A stretch of 33,216 bases of DNA. Origin: Candidatus Parcubacteria bacterium (GTDB lineage Bacteria > Patescibacteriota > Minisyncoccia > Phycocordibacterales > CALRHW01). Both the position numbers and the translations under genes were made by a program. The notes under the pieces are model-generated. The model was not told the origin of the DNA. It searched no databases and saw only the letters and a program-made list of their open reading frames with translations. The stretch covers positions 1 through 33,216 of the forward strand of contig SICJ01000005.1 of the NCBI GenBank assembly GCA_009691505.1, written 5' to 3'. Shown here one piece after another: positions 15,415 to 26,094 of the stretch. Position 1 is the stretch's first letter. Each line of letters begins with the position of its first letter.

Positions 15415-16056
15415 ATGCGTACCTACATTTTTATTGATGCATCAAACCTTTTTTATGGTTTTGATACTGAATATGGTTGGGAAATAGACTATAATAGACT
15501 TAGGAAATACCTCGTGGAAAAATATTTTGCAATCGAGATTCTTTATTTTGGTGGTATTGATACTGCTGTCGGCATTCAACCAAACAAAGAATACTTTCAC
15601 GATTACTCTGGCGATGAGACAGTAAATATAAAAAACTACGTTGCACACTTTGAAAACATCCTGACAACATATGAAAAACTTTCTCGTGCGCAAATCGCCC
15701 TAATAAAAAAATTTACTCAACAAGTAAAATTTTATCGAAAGATTGAGTCGTTTGGATATAAGTTGTTTTTGAAACCTGTTAAGCGGTTTGACACACAAAG
15801 AAAAGCGAACTGCGACGTGGATCTCACTATTAAGGCAATGGCAAATATTTAGCTATTTGATCGTGTCATAGTTCTATCTGGAGATGGTGACTTTCTTCCA
15901 CTCTACAAATACCTTGAAAGAGAGCACAAGGAGGTGTATGTGTTGGCTCGTAGTTCAAAGACTGCAAGAGAAGCAAAACGTCATTTAGTAGCTAAATTTA
16001 TTGAGATTCGTAAGCTGAAGAATCAAATAGAGTTCTTGGGCAACATCAAAATATAA
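15415..16056 (+). pseudogene. NYN/LabA-like (DUF88) domain protein interrupted by an in-frame TAG at 15850-15852
   Basis: MRTYIFIDASNLFYGF...KRKANCDVDLTIKAMANI*LFDRVIVLSGDGDFLPLYKYLEREHKEVYVLARSSKTAREAKRHLVAKFIEIRKLKNQIEFLGNIKI*; same frame on both sides of the stop. Confidence 0.85.
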
Positions 16057-16143: not shown

Positions 16144-19100
16144 TTAGTCTCCGCTTTCACCACTTATTTCAACAACACCTGGCGATATTCCCTCTGTTCC
16201 TGTATCTATTAATGGAGTGTCTGCGTCACTGGTTGTTTTTCCAGATTCGCTGTCGCCCGCGCCACCTCCGTCTACGCCACCTCCGCCATCAGTACGTCCG
16301 TCTACGCCACCTCCGCCATCAGTACCTCCGTCTACGCCACCGCTACCACCATCACCCACTCCACCGCCCGTAGTCTGCACCGCTCCACATTCCCCCGCAG
16401 TCGTTTTTGTATTTCCATTTGAAATACTCAAACAATGTGGCTCACCAGTCTTGTCGTCAAAAATAGTTATACCTGTTGGCTTTTCTTTACTTCCCACTGT
16501 GAGCGTTTCTGTTATAAGCTTTTTAAATCCAGCAAATCCTTGGCTGATATTTGCTCCGAGTGAACCCAGATGACTCAATATAGAATCCATAAATCCAGCA
16601 GAAGTCGCAGAAGTTGTGGTTGTCGCGGTCGTAGTTGCAAGACCAAAAGCTATATTTTCAAGAGCAGTAACACGCACATCCAAAGCGTCAAATTTATTTT
16701 GCAAAGATTTTACTCCACCGAGAGTCAAAGTGGCGAGCTTATAAATATCCACATTATCACCGCTTACAGAAAGTATTTCACTTGGCGCATTGTCAGAAAT
16801 AATTCCGAGACGTGACTCGCCTGATCCATCATCTTTATATTGATATGTTGAAATATTTATATTCCTAATTTCATCTAAATAAGAATTGTAATTTTCTTCT
16901 CCAAGTGTGACAACATTTTCCATCAAACTTCTTTTTGCTTTTGCAGTAAAACCAAATGCCTGCACATTACCTATCACGTCAAGTTTTGAAGATGGAGTAG
17001 AAGTGCCGATGCCCACATTGCCTTTATCGTCAGTTGAAATTGCATTTCCAGAATAATATTGAGGATTGAGCTCTACTATAATAGTGCCTTGCAACTCACT
17101 AGAAGCAAGAGCAGATAAAGCCCGCCCGATCACATATCCTGATCCAAGAGCTTTCATACCAATACCAGCAGACGATGAAGTCGTGACCAAATCCCCCACT
17201 TTTATTTTTCCATTTTCATTATTTACCAGCACATTTGCACGACCGTGCATAGCGACTCGTATTGTTTTTTCATTTTCATTTCCTAAAATCTGCGCCGAAC
17301 CGAGTGGATTGCCACCAACAACTCCAATAGTCAAACCGTCATATTTTTTATCCGATTTTTTTACTTTCATACTACTACTGTCATCAATAGATACTATTTC
17401 ACCTTCAGCATAACCCGAAGGTTCTCCGACAAGATATGCTGTAGAAATATTTCCGCCAGTTATTGCATCGTATGGCTGTGATGTAGTATCAAGTGAAGCT
17501 GGAGTACTTCGATTTGGTATTACTTGTCCATCCGGTGGATCGTCAACCCAAAGTCTTATAAAAGAAATTTCTAATTCTCTAGGTGTGAAAGCTACAGTCT
17601 GTGTTACTGCTACAGAAATCACCATAGACAGATTAACTCCTGTCGGAATATTGGTGGAGATAGTGCCAACCTCAGCATCGTTTATAAGAAATGTGGCGAG
17701 CGTTGGTGTGAGCTCTATTCTCATTTTTGCAAATGCGGTTGTAGATGTAGCTATGCCTGTATTAAAACTTGTTTCAACACCAGCTTTTCTAGCAACAGCG
17801 CGCCATGTATTTGTGGAAGATGCGGCAAAATATACACCACTGGTTGGATCAATGTTATACGAATTAGCCAAGGACGTAGGAATTGGATGATTGGTAAAAC
17901 CAATATAATACGCACTAGTAGAACCAGAACCAGCCACTATCGTTGGGGTTCTCACAGATGTTAACATCACTGGATTATTTTCTGGAGCTATAGATAGTGG
18001 ACCTGTTCTTATTGCGAAAGCCTCACCTGCAATAGCGGTGCTTGTGATACCTGCGCGGAGTGTACCATAAGATGGATTGGCGTTGGCTGTAAAAAGATAA
18101 CCTCCATCAAGTGTAGCTGTAGTATCTGTAGCAAATTGTCCGCAGATAGCACCTGTGGGTCTACTATTGGTGAGGGTGCGATCCGATCCAAACATGTCAC
18201 ATCGCAACTCTTTCCATGTAGAATAAATTCTTCCAGCAACTACAAATTGGTCACGGAGCCCAGCTGTTCCAGAATTGGTTGTGGTACCAATGCCGATTCG
18301 TACCCAGTCTAGATTGCCTGTGGTTGTTGAGGTTACATATATCAAAGGTGTTGCCCCCGTAGTCGTTGCAATGACAAGTTGAGGATAACTATCACCCACA
18401 ACAGACAAGTATGCCCACGGAGTGGTAGTACCGATACCGACATTTCCACCGTTTGCAACTATAAAATTTGTCGCAGTAGAAGAACCCACCACAAATTGTG
18501 GAACGCCTGTGGCGAGAGCGTCTGCATTTACTGAAAGGAGTCCCCAAGGAGTGGTCGTACCGATACCCACATTTCCTCCAGTAAACAGTGCGGAAAATGT
18601 AGAATTACTAAAGGTTTTTGTGCCTGTAAATGTTTGTGAGCCAGAGAGGAGAGCAATGTTTGCAGTGTCACTTAGATCACCTGAAGCAATAGTAGACCAA
18701 GCTGGGTTATTTGATGTGCCGGAGTTTTTAAGGAAAGAGTTTGCAGTGCCAGATTTTGTGAGTGCAGAGAATACATTTGATGCTGAGCCGAAAAGAATAT
18801 CACCTTGTGCGATTGTAGTAAGTCCTGTGCCTCCGTAAAGAGCTCCGATAGATGATGTTGCTGATACAAGTCCTGCATTTGCTTGAAGTGGACCGTTTAA
18901 ACCTGTCGCGAGTTGAAGACCACCTGTTCCAGAGACTGTAAGTGCAGTAGTAGAAGCATAAGGAAATGTAGAAGCGGTGGAGGTGGTGGCGGTGAAATAT
19001 GAAGCGACGACTTGTCCGACGACGGAGAGTTTGGCGTAGGGAGAGGTGGTGCCGATACCCACTTTCCCAAGATTTGTAGAAGCGAGTAAAATGTTGCCGA

Positions 19101-20181
19101 TGGCGCCAGAAGGTGAGGCGCCTGGATTTATATTTACATTTCCACTGGGACCGCCGGGAGAACTCGCACCTCCTGTGATTAACACATCTCCACCAGCAGC
19201 TACTTCATTTCCACCTAAACCGCCTTGGATAACAATAGCGCCGCCAGCTTCGCCTGAATCTGAACACAGCTCGCCTTCACACACTCCAGAGCCTCCTGTA
19301 AGAAATATTCCTTCTGTACTAACGCCACCTGATGGGTTAAATCGCTTTCCTTGCGCAGCAAATGTTCCTGAAGGAGATGTGGTTCCCACACCCACTCTTC
19401 CGCTGTTTGTTACGATGAGAACAGTTTTTGTAGAAGAACCGACAACAAATGCTGGACCAGAGCCGATAGCGTTTGCATTTACTGAAAGAAGTCCCCATGG
19501 CGTCGTCGTTCCAATTCCCACATTACCAGTACTCGCTATTGAAAGTCTAGACGCAGAACTCGGACCAAAAAATTCTGCGATTTTCCCTGCTCCGTTTTGT
19601 GTGAAAGTAAGAAATGTTGTAGCGGTGGAAGTAGCATTGACCGCATCATTTCGCAAAAATTGCTCACTTGAAATGTTATCTATTGTGTCTGCCACAAACG
19701 CTGCGGGCACTGCACCAAGTATTTTTCGTGGAGTCATTTCTCCGTCCCATGATGGTGAGCCACCAGACCCGCCTATTTCTACTCCCAAATAAAGTGTCTG
19801 GTTAAAATTAACACTTGTAAGCGCGGTGGAGCTTCCGAGCATTGCGCTAAAGAGTCCGTTGGTAAGAGTGATACGATTACCAGCTGAAGTGCTTCTGTCT
19901 TCTTCCCAAATGTTTGTGGTCGTCGCACTGGTCGCCGTAGTATATAGACGAAACGTCATGTGATAAATACCATCTGTGACCGCAACGTTGCTTGTGTTTG
20001 TAAGCTTGCCTTGATAATTAATTTGTTTATTAAATTGCGCTTGTGCAATATTTATTTGGTTTGAAAGAACAGAAACCGTTATCAAAAACACAACAAAAGT
20101 TCTCACGCAAAAACGTCGCGCTTTTTTACTTGAACGCATAAACGAGAGAGCTTTCGTTAAATTTTTAATATCAATAATCAT
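16144..20181 (-). CDS. large secreted fiber/adhesin-like protein with GNVGIGTTTP repeats, S74-chaperone-like C-terminal region and Gly-rich tail
   Basis: Signal peptide; repeated (G)NVGIGT(T/S)(T/S)PWGLLSVNA-type motifs; S74-like stretch near the C-terminus (NYNSYLDEIRNINISTYQYKDDGSGESRLGIISDNAPSEILSV...LQNKFDALDVRVTALE); GGGGVDGGTD tail. Confidence 0.8.
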   Translation of the reverse strand: MIIDIKNLTKALSFMRSSKKARRFCVRTFVVFLITVSVLSNQINIAQAQFNKQINYQGKLTNTSNVAVTDGIYHMTFRLYTTATSATTTNIWEEDRSTSAGNRITLTNGLFSAMLGSSTALTSVNFNQTLYLGVEIGGSGGSPSWDGEMTPRKILGAVPAAFVADTIDNISSEQFLRNDAVNATSTATTFLTFTQNGAGKIAEFFGPSSASRLSIASTGNVGIGTTTPWGLLSVNANAIGSGPAFVVGSSTKTVLIVTNSGRVGVGTTSPSGTFAAQGKRFNPSGGVSTEGIFLTGGSGVCEGELCSDSGEAGGAIVIQGGLGGNEVAAGGDVLITGGASSPGGPSGNVNINPGASPSGAIGNILLASTNLGKVGIGTTSPYAKLSVVGQVVASYFTATTSTASTFPYASTTALTVSGTGGLQLATGLNGPLQANAGLVSATSSIGALYGGTGLTTIAQGDILFGSASNVFSALTKSGTANSFLKNSGTSNNPAWSTIASGDLSDTANIALLSGSQTFTGTKTFSNSTFSALFTGGNVGIGTTTPWGLLSVNADALATGVPQFVVGSSTATNFIVANGGNVGIGTTTPWAYLSVVGDSYPQLVIATTTGATPLIYVTSTTTGNLDWVRIGIGTTTNSGTAGLRDQFVVAGRIYSTWKELRCDMFGSDRTLTNSRPTGAICGQFATDTTATLDGGYLFTANANPSYGTLRAGITSTAIAGEAFAIRTGPLSIAPENNPVMLTSVRTPTIVAGSGSTSAYYIGFTNHPIPTSLANSYNIDPTSGVYFAASSTNTWRAVARKAGVETSFNTGIATSTTAFAKMRIELTPTLATFLINDAEVGTISTNIPTGVNLSMVISVAVTQTVAFTPRELEISFIRLWVDDPPDGQVIPNRSTPASLDTTSQPYDAITGGNISTAYLVGEPSGYAEGEIVSIDDSSSMKVKKSDKKYDGLTIGVVGGNPLGSAQILGNENEKTIRVAMHGRANVLVNNENGKIKVGDLVTTSSSAGIGMKALGSGYVIGRALSALASSELQGTIIVELNPQYYSGNAISTDDKGNVGIGTSTPSSKLDVIGNVQAFGFTAKAKRSLMENVVTLGEENYNSYLDEIRNINISTYQYKDDGSGESRLGIISDNAPSEILSVSGDNVDIYKLATLTLGGVKSLQNKFDALDVRVTALENIAFGLATTTATTTTSATSAGFMDSILSHLGSLGANISQGFAGFKKLITETLTVGSKEKPTGITIFDDKTGEPHCLSISNGNTKTTAGECGAVQTTGGGVGDGGSGGVDGGTDGGGGVDGRTDGGGGVDGGGAGDSESGKTTSDADTPLIDTGTEGISPGVVEISGESGD
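16265..16354. repeat. 30-bp tandem repeat (about 3 copies) encoding the Gly/Asp-rich tail
   Basis: cctccgtctacgccacctccgccatcagta repeated at 16265, 16295 and 16325 (last copy diverged). Confidence 0.9.
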
Positions 20182-20184
20182 TTT

Positions 20185-21717
20185 TTAATTTTTCAGACAA
20201 CAACACTCTTTTTTGCGGAAAAATAAGATAATCAAAATCAGAATTATAAATAAAACACCGAATATATTTTTCCAAACAATAGATGGGTTTTGTGATTGAA
20301 GAAGAGGAACGATAGACACGATCACACCTGCGAGCTTTTTTAGACCTTGGTTTTTGTGATCTAGAATCGCAACACCAAATTTGAAATTGCCGTTTCTGCC
20401 GAGAGGGGCGATGGTCGCTTCATAAGCAGTCTTGTCTTTATTTACACGAAGCAAAAATGAAAAAGATTTTCCTTCGTCTTGTGGATCTGTCATCGTAATA
20501 GCAATCGTCTTTAAGATTTCTGGAATTTTTTTATAGTTTAGAGAAATTTGTAATTCCCTGTCTCCTGCGATATTTACTGTATTGTCTTTCACTTCTAGCT
20601 TTTTACCATCTTGGAAAAAATCTAAATCTGCTATTGTGAGCGCTCTGATTATCGGGTTTACTAGATTTGCAGACAATTCCACGATGTCTTCAAACAGACT
20701 TTTTTCATCTTTTATTTCACCCGTCTTACGAAGCTTATCTTTTGCCACAGCACCAGATGAATAATTTCCAAACTTATCTTTTGCAAACAATGTGTAGTAA
20801 TACATTTTTCCATACACCACATCTTTATCAACAAATTTCTCAGCACCGCCTTCATAGATCACTTCTCCGTCAAATAAATCTTTTGGATAAAATTTATCTG
20901 ATTTTACGATACGCACTTGGTCAAAATCAATTTTTGGATTATTCCATGTGAGAGTGATTACTTTGTCGTCCCCGACTGCTTTCAGATTTGTAACGTTGCT
21001 TGGCACTATTTTGTCTGAGAGAAACTTTGTCCAAAACTGCTGATTATTTAATATGAGTTTTCTTCCATATATATCAGTGATTTCAATTTTGAAATAATAT
21101 AGAGTGCCTGCAGTCAAACCTGTGATACTCGTCTCATGATTGGTTACAAAAATATCTGAAGTAATACTTCCTAGCTCATAATCAGGAGTGAGACCGAAAG
21201 AAACGACTGCCTGCGTATATATGTTTGTTTGAAATCTCAGGAGCACATTTGTGAGCCTAGTTTCCACAAAAAGATTTTGAAGCAAAAGTGGAATACTTCC
21301 ACCTGTCGTTCCATTATTGGGAGGGGTTATTGCTTCAGAAAGAGTCGTTGCTGTCGCAATATTTGATAATCCAGATATATTTACCGAAGCATCAAATGCA
21401 GAAACGGTATATGAGTATGCAGTGGAAGGACTGAGGCCTATGTCTGAATAAGTGGTTATCGTTGTCGTTGCAACAAAAACATTGTCTCTAAAAACTCTAT
21501 AACCCGTGACAGCCACATCGTCCGTTGAAGCATTCCATGACAAATTTATTTGCGAAGCAGAGATTGCTGTTGCAGTAAGATTTGCAGGAATAGACGGCGC
21601 AACTGTGTCGACACCTATCAACTGTTTAACTGTAAATTGATCTTCCGCTGCAAAAGTGACAAGTGTAACTGTCCACAGAAGAGCAATTGTTATAAATATT
21701 TTAGTAAAATATTGCAT
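20185..21717 (-). CDS. secreted fibronectin type III domain protein with C-terminal TM anchor
   Basis: Signal peptide, VAPSIPANLTATAISASQINLSWNASTDDVAVTGYRVFRD...YSYTVSAFD (FN3), further FN3-like stretch LKAVGDDKVITLTWNNP..., C-terminal FGVLFIILILIILFFRKKECCCLKN. Confidence 0.85.
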   Translation of the reverse strand: MQYFTKIFITIALLWTVTLVTFAAEDQFTVKQLIGVDTVAPSIPANLTATAISASQINLSWNASTDDVAVTGYRVFRDNVFVATTTITTYSDIGLSPSTAYSYTVSAFDASVNISGLSNIATATTLSEAITPPNNGTTGGSIPLLLQNLFVETRLTNVLLRFQTNIYTQAVVSFGLTPDYELGSITSDIFVTNHETSITGLTAGTLYYFKIEITDIYGRKLILNNQQFWTKFLSDKIVPSNVTNLKAVGDDKVITLTWNNPKIDFDQVRIVKSDKFYPKDLFDGEVIYEGGAEKFVDKDVVYGKMYYYTLFAKDKFGNYSSGAVAKDKLRKTGEIKDEKSLFEDIVELSANLVNPIIRALTIADLDFFQDGKKLEVKDNTVNIAGDRELQISLNYKKIPEILKTIAITMTDPQDEGKSFSFLLRVNKDKTAYEATIAPLGRNGNFKFGVAILDHKNQGLKKLAGVIVSIVPLLQSQNPSIVWKNIFGVLFIILILIILFFRKKECCCLKN

Positions 21718-21734
21718 TATTACTTAGAGCCTGT

Positions 21735-22499
21735 TTAGAGAGGTATCGCTGTGACAGTCGTTGTCGCAGTGTATTCTCCCGCTGGTTGAAGATGTAAAGC
21801 GCCCGATTGCGCTCTAAATTTTAGAGTCGTTGCTGTGCCTGACGATTGATTGGACGACGTGCTTCTGCTAATTGTTTTATCGGTTGTAGATAATGCGTCC
21901 CAACATGCGTTTACTGTGTCTGTTGATCCTGTATTGCAGTTGCTTGCTCCGTCGTCTTTATATTCTTGGACTATATGAGTGCCTTCTGGAGAAAATGCAA
22001 ACTCAGAATCTGAGGAAGATATTGAGAATGTGAAATCTGGGTTTGCTCCGGCTGGCGTATAATCTGCAAAACTATTTGCTCCAAAGATAAGTGCTGGAGA
22101 CGAGCTCGCTTTGATAAAGAGGACATAGCCAGAAGGACTATCTGTCGTCACTGTCACTACAGTTGAACCGTTTGATGTACCACCTGTAACTCCACCGATA
22201 CTTGGACTCATTACGACATCTGATACCGTAGCAATAGATATATAGACGTTGTGCATTTGTTGATAGCCCGCTGCAATATTGTAGTTTGTGCTTCCTGATA
22301 AACCTGTTGCGATTTCTCCCACGGTATCTTCAATACGATAATTTGTAGAGTTTGAAAGGTTTCCGGCAAAATTTACGCTGTCGCTCTGCACTTTGTAGCT
22401 AGTACTATTCATTTGAGCGAGTGTGATACGAGCAACAAAAGACGGCACTAAAAGCGCCGTTACAACAATTGCTCCAACATAAACTTTTATTTTAGACAT
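21735..22499 (-). CDS. secreted surface protein, paralogue of 23483..24157
   Basis: Signal peptide; SNSTNYRIEDTVGEIATGLSGSTNYNIAAGYQQM; then VVMSPSIGGVTGGTSNG...CNTGSTDTVNACWDALSTT...YTATTTVTAIPL. Confidence 0.75.
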   Translation of the reverse strand: MSKIKVYVGAIVVTALLVPSFVARITLAQMNSTSYKVQSDSVNFAGNLSNSTNYRIEDTVGEIATGLSGSTNYNIAAGYQQMHNVYISIATVSDVVMSPSIGGVTGGTSNGSTVVTVTTDSPSGYVLFIKASSSPALIFGANSFADYTPAGANPDFTFSISSSDSEFAFSPEGTHIVQEYKDDGASNCNTGSTDTVNACWDALSTTDKTISRSTSSNQSSGTATTLKFRAQSGALHLQPAGEYTATTTVTAIPL

Positions 22500-22501
22500 T
22501 T

Positions 22502-23473
22502 TTATTTCTTTCGAATTTCAAATCTAGTCAACACAAAGCGGAGAACAAATAGAAGAATGATTATCGCAAGAACAACAATAGCGAGAAGTTTGATTGGAAT
22601 GACCCAGAAACTAAACGACTTTGTGTCAATGATGTTGTCGTATCCTCTGTTGATGGAAGCGGTAGCTGTATATCTGCCCACAAGAAAAGAACTATCCCAA
22701 CGCACTTCGCGCAAACGAAGTGACCCCGGTAGTGCATACCAAGGTTCTACCTCAATATTTTTTACTTCTTCTCCGAGCATATTTTTAATGCTAATTTTTC
22801 CGTATGGATTTACATAAACACTGCCTTTATTTTCGTAGAGTAAACGAAAATCTATCGGGCCAGATGCGTAAATCTGCTTTCCGCCGTTTGTCTCAAACTT
22901 AGTCAGTTGTCCGTCGTGATTTACTGGTCCAGGAATTGTGATAAAAAGAAGTGTGCCCAGTCGTGCCACTATCGTGCTTGTTGGTCCAATTTTTTCTGCA
23001 TTGGGTTTTGAAGCTGTACTTGTAAGTAGACTTCCATAAAGTCCTCCGGGCTGTGCGTCTGTGGGAATAGAAACTGTTACTGGAACAGTGGCACGCTCGC
23101 CATTTTTAAGTGTAAAGCTCCACTCTGGAACTGATATGTAATCTTTTAGAGAATACGGTCCGCGCTCATCACCTAAAAGAACTGCTGTCTGTGTTATATC
23201 TTGTGAACCAGTAAAATCCTCAGTTTCAAAATTGAAAACTCTTTCATCTCCCATTCTGTTTGTAACTGTGATATTTACTGTTTTGCTTTCGCCTGGATTT
23301 ATTTCAAGTTCTACTTTGCCCGGGCCGATAGCAAAATCACCGTGTGTTGAGTTGTCTCCTGTGTTTTCTATTTTGTAGGCAAAGACTTTTGAAGCTCCCG
23401 CGAAACAAAAAACACAGAGAAACAAAAATACTCCCATTTTCCAGAATATGTAATTTTTTGGTTTTGCTGTCAT
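22502..23473 (-). CDS. secreted protein with C-terminal TM, DUF916/WxL-interacting-protein-like architecture
   Basis: KVELEINPGESKTVNITVTNRMGDERVFNFETEDF, PTDAQPGGLYGSLLTS, second beta-rich domain, C-terminal IPIKLLAIVVLAIIILLFVLRFVLTRFEIRKK. Confidence 0.65.
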   Translation of the reverse strand: MTAKPKNYIFWKMGVFLFLCVFCFAGASKVFAYKIENTGDNSTHGDFAIGPGKVELEINPGESKTVNITVTNRMGDERVFNFETEDFTGSQDITQTAVLLGDERGPYSLKDYISVPEWSFTLKNGERATVPVTVSIPTDAQPGGLYGSLLTSTASKPNAEKIGPTSTIVARLGTLLFITIPGPVNHDGQLTKFETNGGKQIYASGPIDFRLLYENKGSVYVNPYGKISIKNMLGEEVKNIEVEPWYALPGSLRLREVRWDSSFLVGRYTATASINRGYDNIIDTKSFSFWVIPIKLLAIVVLAIIILLFVLRFVLTRFEIRKK

Positions 23474-23482
23474 GTAGAGTAA

Positions 23483-24157
23483 TTAATTTATAATTGCTGT
23501 TTGTGTCATTGTCGCTGTGTATGTGTCCTCAATTGTAAGACCTCCTGAATTTAGGAAAGTGCTGAAATAAATACTTGATGTTGCACCAGAAGCTGATGTT
23601 GCTGCACTTGTAACGATTGTTGATGTTGCAACTGTTGATAGTCCCATCCAACATGAACCTGCACTAGTATCTGCACTGCCAGTGTTACAAGTATTTGTAC
23701 CGTTATCTTTAAACTTTTGTGCAAGATTTGCTGTTGTACTTGCTGAAACACTAAATCCAAACTCTGCACCTGCTGGCACTGAGAAAGTAAAGTCAGGAAT
23801 ACCTGTAGTCGCTGGAGTGTAATCAGCAATCGTTCCTGCAAACGCATCACCTACCATTGCTGGAGAAGAACTCGCGGCAAGTGTCATCGTAAAACCTGTG
23901 TTGTTGTTGGTCGTCACCACTGATGTAGATGTGCCGTATGAAGTACCTCCAGTAATACCCGCGATTGAGCCGTTCATAACGACGTCATTTGCGGGAGTTG
24001 CGAAAGTGATTTCGGCTGTGATCGTCTGTTTTACCGTGAACTGATCTTCTATTGCTTGCAAAAACGCGGGTTCTGCAAGACCATAACCAAAGGAAAGCAT
24101 CAGTGTGATGAGGAGGCTTGTCGCTGTGGCTTGTTTTAAATTTATATTTTTTAACAT
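23483..24157 (-). CDS. secreted surface protein, paralogue of 21735..22499
   Basis: Signal peptide followed by EDQFTVKQTITAEITF; VVMNGSIAGITGGTSYG...CNTGSADTSAGSCWMGLST...YTATMTQTAIIN. Confidence 0.75.
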   Translation of the reverse strand: MLKNINLKQATATSLLITLMLSFGYGLAEPAFLQAIEDQFTVKQTITAEITFATPANDVVMNGSIAGITGGTSYGTSTSVVTTNNNTGFTMTLAASSSPAMVGDAFAGTIADYTPATTGIPDFTFSVPAGAEFGFSVSASTTANLAQKFKDNGTNTCNTGSADTSAGSCWMGLSTVATSTIVTSAATSASGATSSIYFSTFLNSGGLTIEDTYTATMTQTAIIN

Positions 24158-24261
24158 AATAATTCTGATAATTTTGATAATTTGTCTCGACCTTATAGGC
24201 TTGTGCCTATCCTCGAAGCTCTTTTAATATTTTATAAAAAGCGCCGAGGATAAATGCAAAC

Positions 24262-25392
24262 TTATTCTGTTTTTTGTTCTGTGATTGGCACCATTACATA
24301 TAAATAATTTTGGTCAGATAATTTTGTAAACACCGGCTTGATTACACCAGAAGAACCCGTCTTGTCTGGAAAAATTTCTGTTTGGTCAGAAAAAGAATCT
24401 TTGATTTGCTGTTTTGTTTTCTCATCTTTAATTTCGTCTCCACTACTTGGCACTACAGTGATACCCATTTGAGTGTCGTTTTTGTAAACCGAGTTTACTT
24501 GTTCACTATCAAGAGTGGCGACCTTGTCTGCTGTTTCAAAATTAAAAAGACCAGAAACAAAACGATATGTTCCTGATGCTATATGACTAAAGAATGTTCC
24601 AAGAGAATCTTTGAACGCTCCACCTAAAGATGCTGAGTTATTTGTTTGAGTGGTTTGAGCTGTTTGAAAAGTGTTTTGATAAACGGGTGCTACGCGAGAA
24701 CTTAAGTTTTTGTTAGACGATATACTAAAAAATAAAACAGCTATTACGGCAAAAGAAATGGTAGGAATAAGAAAAGCGGGTTTTTTAAATAATGTTTTTG
24801 TTTTTAATATTTCATCTGTCTTTGGTTTTTGTGGCGCCAGTGGCGCCTCAATCTTTAATAAAACGGACTCTGGGGGTGTCTCAATTTTTGGTAAAACCGT
24901 AGGTGGAAAATAAATTACTCCACGTTCCTTTTTTGCAGTATTTTCTTTATGTTCTCGTAAAGATACCTCACTAATAAACCAACGCTTTCCGACTTGCTTG
25001 CAGTCTAGATTGTTACTTCTACAAAGCTGACCTATATAATCCTGTGTGTATCCGGTGATTTCAGAAGCTCGTTTTGCTGATACATAAAAAATCTCCTGTT
25101 CTGGTTTTAGACCAAGTATTGGGGGTGGGGAAAAATATGATGATGGAAGTATCTGGGTAGATGATTTAAGAGTAGGGGTTGGGACGGGTCTTTCGCTGGG
25201 TTTTAAGGTGCTGTTTTTTATGTGTTCAAGAAGTGAGTTTTCAGCCACAAACCATGCCTTACCAATACGTCTATTCTCAAGTTTTTTTAAACGGCAGAGT
25301 TGTCCGATATAATCCGCAGTATAGCCACTTATTTCGGAAGCTCGTTTTGCCGAGATGAATTTTTTTCCTGAAAAATAGAGCTCGTTGTTCAT
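24262..25392 (-). CDS. putative membrane-anchored regulator with two tandem HTH (MerR/excisionase-like) domains
   Basis: Two related blocks, FISAKRASEISGYTADYIGQLCRLKKLENRRIGKAWFVAENSLLEH and YVSAKRASEITGYTQDYIGQLCRSNNLDCKQVGKRWFISEVSLREH, then a TM segment (PAFLIPTISFAVIAVLFFSI). Start set at ATG 25392. Confidence 0.75.
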   Translation of the reverse strand: MNNELYFSGKKFISAKRASEISGYTADYIGQLCRLKKLENRRIGKAWFVAENSLLEHIKNSTLKPSERPVPTPTLKSSTQILPSSYFSPPPILGLKPEQEIFYVSAKRASEITGYTQDYIGQLCRSNNLDCKQVGKRWFISEVSLREHKENTAKKERGVIYFPPTVLPKIETPPESVLLKIEAPLAPQKPKTDEILKTKTLFKKPAFLIPTISFAVIAVLFFSISSNKNLSSRVAPVYQNTFQTAQTTQTNNSASLGGAFKDSLGTFFSHIASGTYRFVSGLFNFETADKVATLDSEQVNSVYKNDTQMGITVVPSSGDEIKDEKTKQQIKDSFSDQTEIFPDKTGSSGVIKPVFTKLSDQNYLYVMVPITEQKTE

Positions 25393-25712: not shown

Positions 25713-25955
25713 ATGAGTGATTCTTTTTTAACAATCAAACAAGCAGCAAAAATGTTAGGGGTTACGCCCTTAACTCTGCGTAACTGGGATAGGGCTGGAA
25801 AATTTGAAGCGACTAGACATCCAATAAACAACTACCGTGTATACAAAATAGAAGATGTAAATGCTTTTATAAAAGAGATGGGAGAAAAAAAACAAGACAC
25901 GACAAATCGCAAAAATCAAGTGAAGAAATTGAACATCCTACATCTTGAGGACTAG
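25713..25955 (+). CDS. small MerR-like HTH DNA-binding protein
   Basis: FLTIKQAAKMLGVTPLTLRNWDRAGKFEATRHPINNYRVYKIEDVNAFIKE. Confidence 0.85.
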   Translation: MSDSFLTIKQAAKMLGVTPLTLRNWDRAGKFEATRHPINNYRVYKIEDVNAFIKEMGEKKQDTTNRKNQVKKLNILHLED

Positions 25956-26094
25956 TGTTTAAAAAGTAAAAATAGAGTTTGTGTTTATAAATGACTCGCG
26001 CAGGCGAGGGCGGCGCCGAGCGGAGCAGAAACCGTAGCAACGATTTACGCGTGCATTTAGAAACACAAACTCTATTTTTACTTTTTAAACACTA
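25953..26094. repeat. 142-bp element with perfect 34-bp inverted-repeat arms and GC-rich core; possible bidirectional terminator
   Basis: tagtgtttaaaaagtaaaaatagagtttgtgttt (25953-25986) is the exact reverse complement of 26061-26094. Confidence 0.9.

Follow-up and report, generated by a model that had tools for sequence, protein, structure and literature searches.

The window analysed here is a stretch of 33,216 nucleotides constituting one entire contig of a genome of 465,688 bp with an estimated completeness of 93.6%, belonging, as the initial annotation had recognized, to a CPR organism. Six consecutive genes are present on its minus strand (Table 1), the gap between the HTH gene and S1 being 104 bp and the subsequent ones, down to FIB, only 9, 2, 17 and 3 bp, in agreement with the spacing of 2–17 bp initially given for the last five. 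Each of these five products (5/5: S1, DUF916, S2, FN3 and FIB) has an N-terminal hydrophobic segment corresponding to a signal peptide, and hydropathy places a C-terminal TM segment in two of them, the DUF916 protein (296–314) and the FN3 protein (480–498), both features having been proposed beforehand.

Table 1. Genes and predicted transcript end of the locus, with positions in the window.
Feature	Position	Strand	Description
HTH regulator	24262-25392	-	from ATG, 376 aa; an in-frame upstream GTG would give 388 aa
S1	23483-24157	-	ORF, 224 aa; putative secreted pilin-like subunit
DUF916 protein	22502-23473	-	ORF, 323 aa; WxLIP-like, membrane-tethered, two Ig domains
S2	21735-22499	-	ORF, 254 aa; putative PamT-like secreted subunit
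FN3 protein	20185-21717	-	ORF, 510 aa; C-terminal TM, proposed membrane anchor
FIB	16144-20181	-	ORF, 1345 aa; giant secreted fibre-like protein
Intrinsic terminator (predicted transcript end)	16090-16064	-	11-bp stem, then TTTTTGTTTA (T run), just 3' of FIB

Gene order was compared over 57 loci retrieved from named genomes with the DUF916 protein family as the only bait, so that the neighbouring S1, S2, FN3 and FIB genes were not selected for; counts are given on 56 of these loci, the sister-species contig being left out, and denominators are the loci with room for the neighbour in question. S1 lies directly upstream of DUF916 in 50/51 loci and S2 directly downstream of it in 51/52, FN3 is found nearby downstream in 39/44, and FIB follows downstream in 17 of 28, being absent downstream in 11/28; several loci without a downstream FIB (L052-L054, L064) have a giant protein upstream of S1 instead. 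A regulator-type HTH gene is located upstream in 17/56 loci and between FN3 and FIB in 11/56. The hosts of the cassette include Kaiser-, Zambryski-, Nomura-, Taylor-, Yonath-, Campbell-, Falkow-, Buchanan- and Jacksonbacteria, and its genomic settings vary, the neighbours being gatB/obgE-, GAPDH- or rseP-looking genes and others. The FIB N-terminal domain and the DUF916 protein also co-occur in relatives from the same order (10/13, p=6e-5). Because the order is conserved across genomes, the six-gene observation is more than chance, and S1-DUF916-S2-FN3-FIB constitutes a real, conserved unit across many Parcubacterial lineages; the earlier view of these genes as one unit has therefore withstood the examination of co-conservation across genomes. 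One locus bearing a full Parcubacterial cassette (L080) is titled Burkholderiales, which probably reflects misbinning or mislabelling of the MAG contig.

The central DUF916 protein narrowly passes the Pfam cut-off for PF06030 (27.6 bits, cut-off 27.3), a model which is matched by 7/10 of its homologues at E<=0.1, and in a PDB sequence search the profile of its family leads to the solved WxLIP of E. faecium, EfmWxLIP1 (E=1e-8). Its AF2 model (pLDDT 94.4) includes a second beta domain at about 169–291 and a C-terminal TM helix at 294–317 (hydropathy 3.28), and Foldseek returns WxLIP as the best match (E 2e-12), followed by the pilus chaperones CfaA, CsuC, Caf1M and FimC, and also by RbmA. Sequence and fold thus both bear out the initial description of this product as DUF916/WxLIP-like. 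We propose that the DUF916 protein is a pilus chaperone or assembly factor.

Its two small neighbours, S1 and S2, are paralogous, as had been supposed (profile comparison, E 6.6e-52), and neither has a Pfam match at E<=1, WxL domains included. S1 is characterized by a conserved Cys pair (157/169), an N-terminal strand EDQFTVKQ and a C-terminal strand TYTATxTxTA, and was aligned by hhalign with the Pam pilin C-domain at P=97% and E=1.2e-10, the reversed control being null. S2 consists of a conserved N-terminal module (31–85) and an Ig-like pilin domain (83–254, with Cys188/199). The NCBIfam PamT model, NF058579, gives S2 of the window 37.8 bits, far under its cut-off of 240; it is matched by 10/10 of the S2 homologues tested and also scores weakly in three control genomes. 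With hhalign, S2 and PamT are related at E=1.2e-17, the signal coming mostly from the N-terminal module, and comparison of the C-domains alone gives P=9%. In the structural model of S2 the Ig-like core (83–254) is confident and the N-terminal module (29–82) is highly conserved yet of low confidence, a pattern as would be expected for a segment folding on binding. Foldseek matches of S2, each of them weak (E 0.03–0.15), are CfaB, the PapG pilin domain, PapE, CsuA/B, FimG, TasA and Pyrodictium cannulae, so the core fold may be said to resemble weakly the pilins of chaperone-usher and other donor-strand fibres. A BtpiA-like identity of S2 was discarded, the PDB match (E 0.011) being too weak to use.

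For reference, loci of the recently named Pam pili were taken from genomes of the phylum having over-cut-off Pam pilins and were read gene by gene. PamT and PamR are encoded there together with several pilins and a DUF916-like TM protein, to which a giant protein is often added. Profile-profile comparisons relate the DUF916 protein to the DUF916-like TM protein of these loci (E=6e-61) and the FIB N-terminal domain to their giant proteins (E=4.4e-45), with null results for reversed and unrelated controls. At the level of profiles, remote homology is thus shown between S1 and Pam pilins, between S2 and PamT, and between the DUF916 protein and FIB N-terminus and the proteins occupying the same places in Pam loci. 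The locus described here resembles the Pam system in having a PamT-like protein, pilins, a DUF916-like TM protein and a giant protein whose N-terminal domain is the same, but differs from it in having an FN3 anchor instead of PamR, in a PamT score far below cut-off, in a fixed S1-DUF916-S2 order accompanied by a dual-HTH membrane regulator, and in genomic setting, as several Pam loci adjoin ATP synthase-looking genes. The best reading of these similarities is that of a Parcubacterial variant of Pam-type pili, apparently related yet distinct.

No gene of the locus reaches a curated NCBIfam Pam cut-off, and neither the Pam pilin C domain (NF058581) nor PamR (NF058578) finds a match anywhere in the genome; NF058580, considered as a further Pam model, is a lipase model. 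In the literature collection searched, nothing was found on PamT or the Pam pilus, the label "pilus" resting on NCBI family names. Among phylum genomes, over-cut-off matches were obtained in 15/287 with the Pam pilin model and in 9/287 with PamR; the DUF916 family is present in 112 of the 286 sampled phylum genomes, and in this sample 68/72 genomes with Pam-pilin-like proteins also have it (p=2e-30). The named Pam models are therefore narrow and the DUF916 family broad, current annotation missing most of the wider family. The initial statement that the assembly was not described as a unit holds in part: the related Pam pilus system does have NCBIfam models, none of which annotates this locus at its cut-off. 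The operon is real, conserved and pilus-like, a new variant akin to both Pam pili and WxLIP that current models leave unannotated at their cut-offs.

The commonest WxL cluster consists of one WxLIP-like protein and two small secreted partners, and a strand inserted by the WxLIP hairpin is predicted to complete the WxL sandwich (PMC10599100), which is the same principle as that of pilus chaperones. With the WxL clusters of Firmicutes the locus shares the homology and fold of its DUF916 protein, the pair of Ig domains, a C-terminal TM and the combination of one WxLIP-type gene with two small secreted proteins (PMC10599100). It could accordingly be imagined as a cell-wall scaffold of the WxL type, in which the DUF916 protein, whose closest solved relative is a WxLIP, would retain two secreted domains at the wall and present FIB without any polymer being formed. 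This we consider unlikely, as S1 and S2 have no Pfam WxL match and relate to Pam pilins instead, and the companion families are FN3 and FIB. Furthermore, the Firmicute WxLIP is composed of DUF916, DUF3324 and a TM, whereas DUF3324 has no Pfam match in the DUF916 protein or the homologues tested, and the NQIDKxxxYFDLK motif near the N-terminus is absent from their alignment, (G/N)DFxxxPxKxE being found in its place. WxL clusters are recognized by at least two WxL-domain proteins nearby, and here neither S1 nor S2 has a Pfam match. Since S1 and S2 appear related to Pam pilins and PamT, the unit seems to have more in common with a pilus locus than with a WxL cluster of the cell wall; of the WxL-like layout initially suggested, the WxLIP idea was right for the DUF916 gene, while S1 and S2 turned out not to be WxL proteins.

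In some more distant DUF916 loci (L036, L037, L043, L044) the DUF916 gene is paired with proteins whose terminal strands are TEAGSYTTTLTYVATANF-like. One of these loci, L036, also has a Dockerin_1 protein (over cut-off) and a Cohesin-like protein (just below) close by, and weaker dockerin-like tails are seen elsewhere; loci of this type are possibly a cohesin-dockerin-linked version.

Chaperone-usher pili (CfaA-CfaB, CsuC-CsuA/B, FimC-FimA) likewise combine a two-Ig chaperone-like protein with Ig-like subunits, the likeness being one of fold. The present locus differs from them in that its putative chaperone is membrane-tethered, in the lack of any outer-membrane usher candidate among the six genes, and in that PDB sequence searches detected no sequence homology to chaperone-usher proteins.

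The FN3 protein contains an fn3 domain (Pfam, 43.3 bits), and an NCBIfam match to CbhB probably reflects just shared FN3 repeats. Its identification as PamR, raised by its position and a 56% hhalign score, was rejected, P being 0.4% once the TM and signal were removed. After the signal, the mature N-terminus in this window begins EDQFTVKQTITAE in S1 and EDQFTVKQLIGVD in FN3, the latter (EDQFTVKQLI) resembling the N-terminal strand of S1. Across 41 loci the similarity of cognate S1 and FN3 N-termini is 27.2 vs 19.8 for shuffled sequences (p=1e-8), and it also exceeds that of non-cognate pairs (p=9e-4), an excess which may partly be due to shared locus ancestry or composition. This common N-terminal strand suggests that FN3 presents an S1-type strand and could seat the fibre.

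FIB has a conserved N-terminal domain, GIGTTTP repeats and no C-terminal anchor or TM, and its C-terminal region matches Peptidase_S74 below cut-off, so calling it "giant fiber-like", as was done initially, is fair. The fibre-like repeats and the weak S74 chaperone-like region would also suit a locus for a secreted trimeric adhesin, FIB acting alone and S1, S2 and the DUF916 protein being accessory folding or export factors. With FIB as the least constant member (17/28) and S1-DUF916-S2 nearly invariant, however, the core is independent of FIB, and we regard such a locus as highly improbable. An NYN-domain gene adjoins FIB at 15415–15852 of the window, and apparent relatives of it stand beside a giant-protein or fibre gene in two other loci (L028:330-860, L053:319-963).

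Given a chaperone-like DUF916 protein, pilin-like S1 and S2, no sortase over cut-off in the genome (a sub-threshold match at G000:C23:11061-11210 reaches 17.2 vs 26.6 bits) and an unanchored FIB, the most parsimonious model is that of a non-covalent fibre loaded from a membrane-tethered chaperone. A sortase-linked or type IV pilus locus would fit a pilus in a Gram-positive-like cell, and T2SS/T4P-type ATPases are encoded elsewhere in the genome; these are, however, outside the locus, inspection of S1 and S2 revealed neither an LPXTG tail nor a type III signal, and with the sortase score so far short of its cut-off this explanation is scarcely credible. We consider it probable that the operon serves a surface fibre held together non-covalently, a variant, in Parcubacteria, of the CPR Pam-type pilus. 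For such a fibre, S1 as the repeating subunit and S2 as a PamT-like specialised subunit would be Ig-like pilin domains exported via Sec and held by the DUF916 protein, which would be anchored through its C-terminal TM with its two Ig domains outside. The DUF916 protein would most likely lend a beta strand to S1 and S2, in the manner predicted for WxLIP and WxL, and hand the subunits on, and we infer that polymerisation would proceed by donor-strand exchange, the N-terminal strand of one subunit completing the next. As base of the fibre, FN3 would anchor it in the membrane, perhaps via its S1-like N-terminal strand, and FIB would be displayed as a tip or stalk protein or adhesin.

Cultured work on contact with partners has, to our knowledge, been concerned with Saccharibacteria and type IV pili. 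In a cultured Saccharibacterium, essential envelope proteins include dockerin- and FN3-domain proteins (Cell 2023, PMC10633639). By analogy, the product of the operon would likely attach the cell to a partner cell, and the surface assembly initially envisaged can be retained as likely. More tentatively, and with some doubt on our part, single-membrane CPR bacteria may assemble pili without an usher, the Ig-like pilins being loaded through donor-strand complementation by a membrane-tethered DUF916 chaperone; WxL clusters, Pam pili and this operon would then be branches of a single assembly principle, with the operon itself as a widespread Parcubacterial host-attachment fibre. A conserved, nameable operon provides a concrete Parcubacterial surface structure to look for, and Firmicute WxLIP, CPR pili and chaperone-assisted pilus assembly become linked in one testable mechanism.

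The HTH protein has two tandem MerR/excisionase-type HTH motifs (HTH_17, 27.6 bits, cut-off 27), a single TM (206–224) and an extracytoplasmic tail with the motif FSDxVxVxPDxxGxSGVIxPVFxxxxxxYxYVMVPV, and most proteins encoded upstream of S1 in related loci similarly combine an HTH, a TM and a conserved tail ending in YxYVMVPV. Conservation of the tail implies contact with an envelope partner, which, speculatively, could be the assembly machinery; the membrane-bound dual-HTH protein would then tune transcription to the state of the envelope or of assembly. At 25713–25955 there is a gene for an 80-aa MerR/excisionase-like protein, divergent from the operon and conserved as a neighbour of the regulator in the sister species (L027), and two other loci (L048, L068) have an 80–82-aa gene in a similar place. 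Between this gene and gatB, at 25953–26094, lies an element with 41-nt inverted-repeat arms (98%) and a 60-nt GC-rich core, which has 15 matches in its own 465-kb genome, 12 in the sister species and 0 in 19 other order relatives, and is thus a genus-specific dispersed small repeat.
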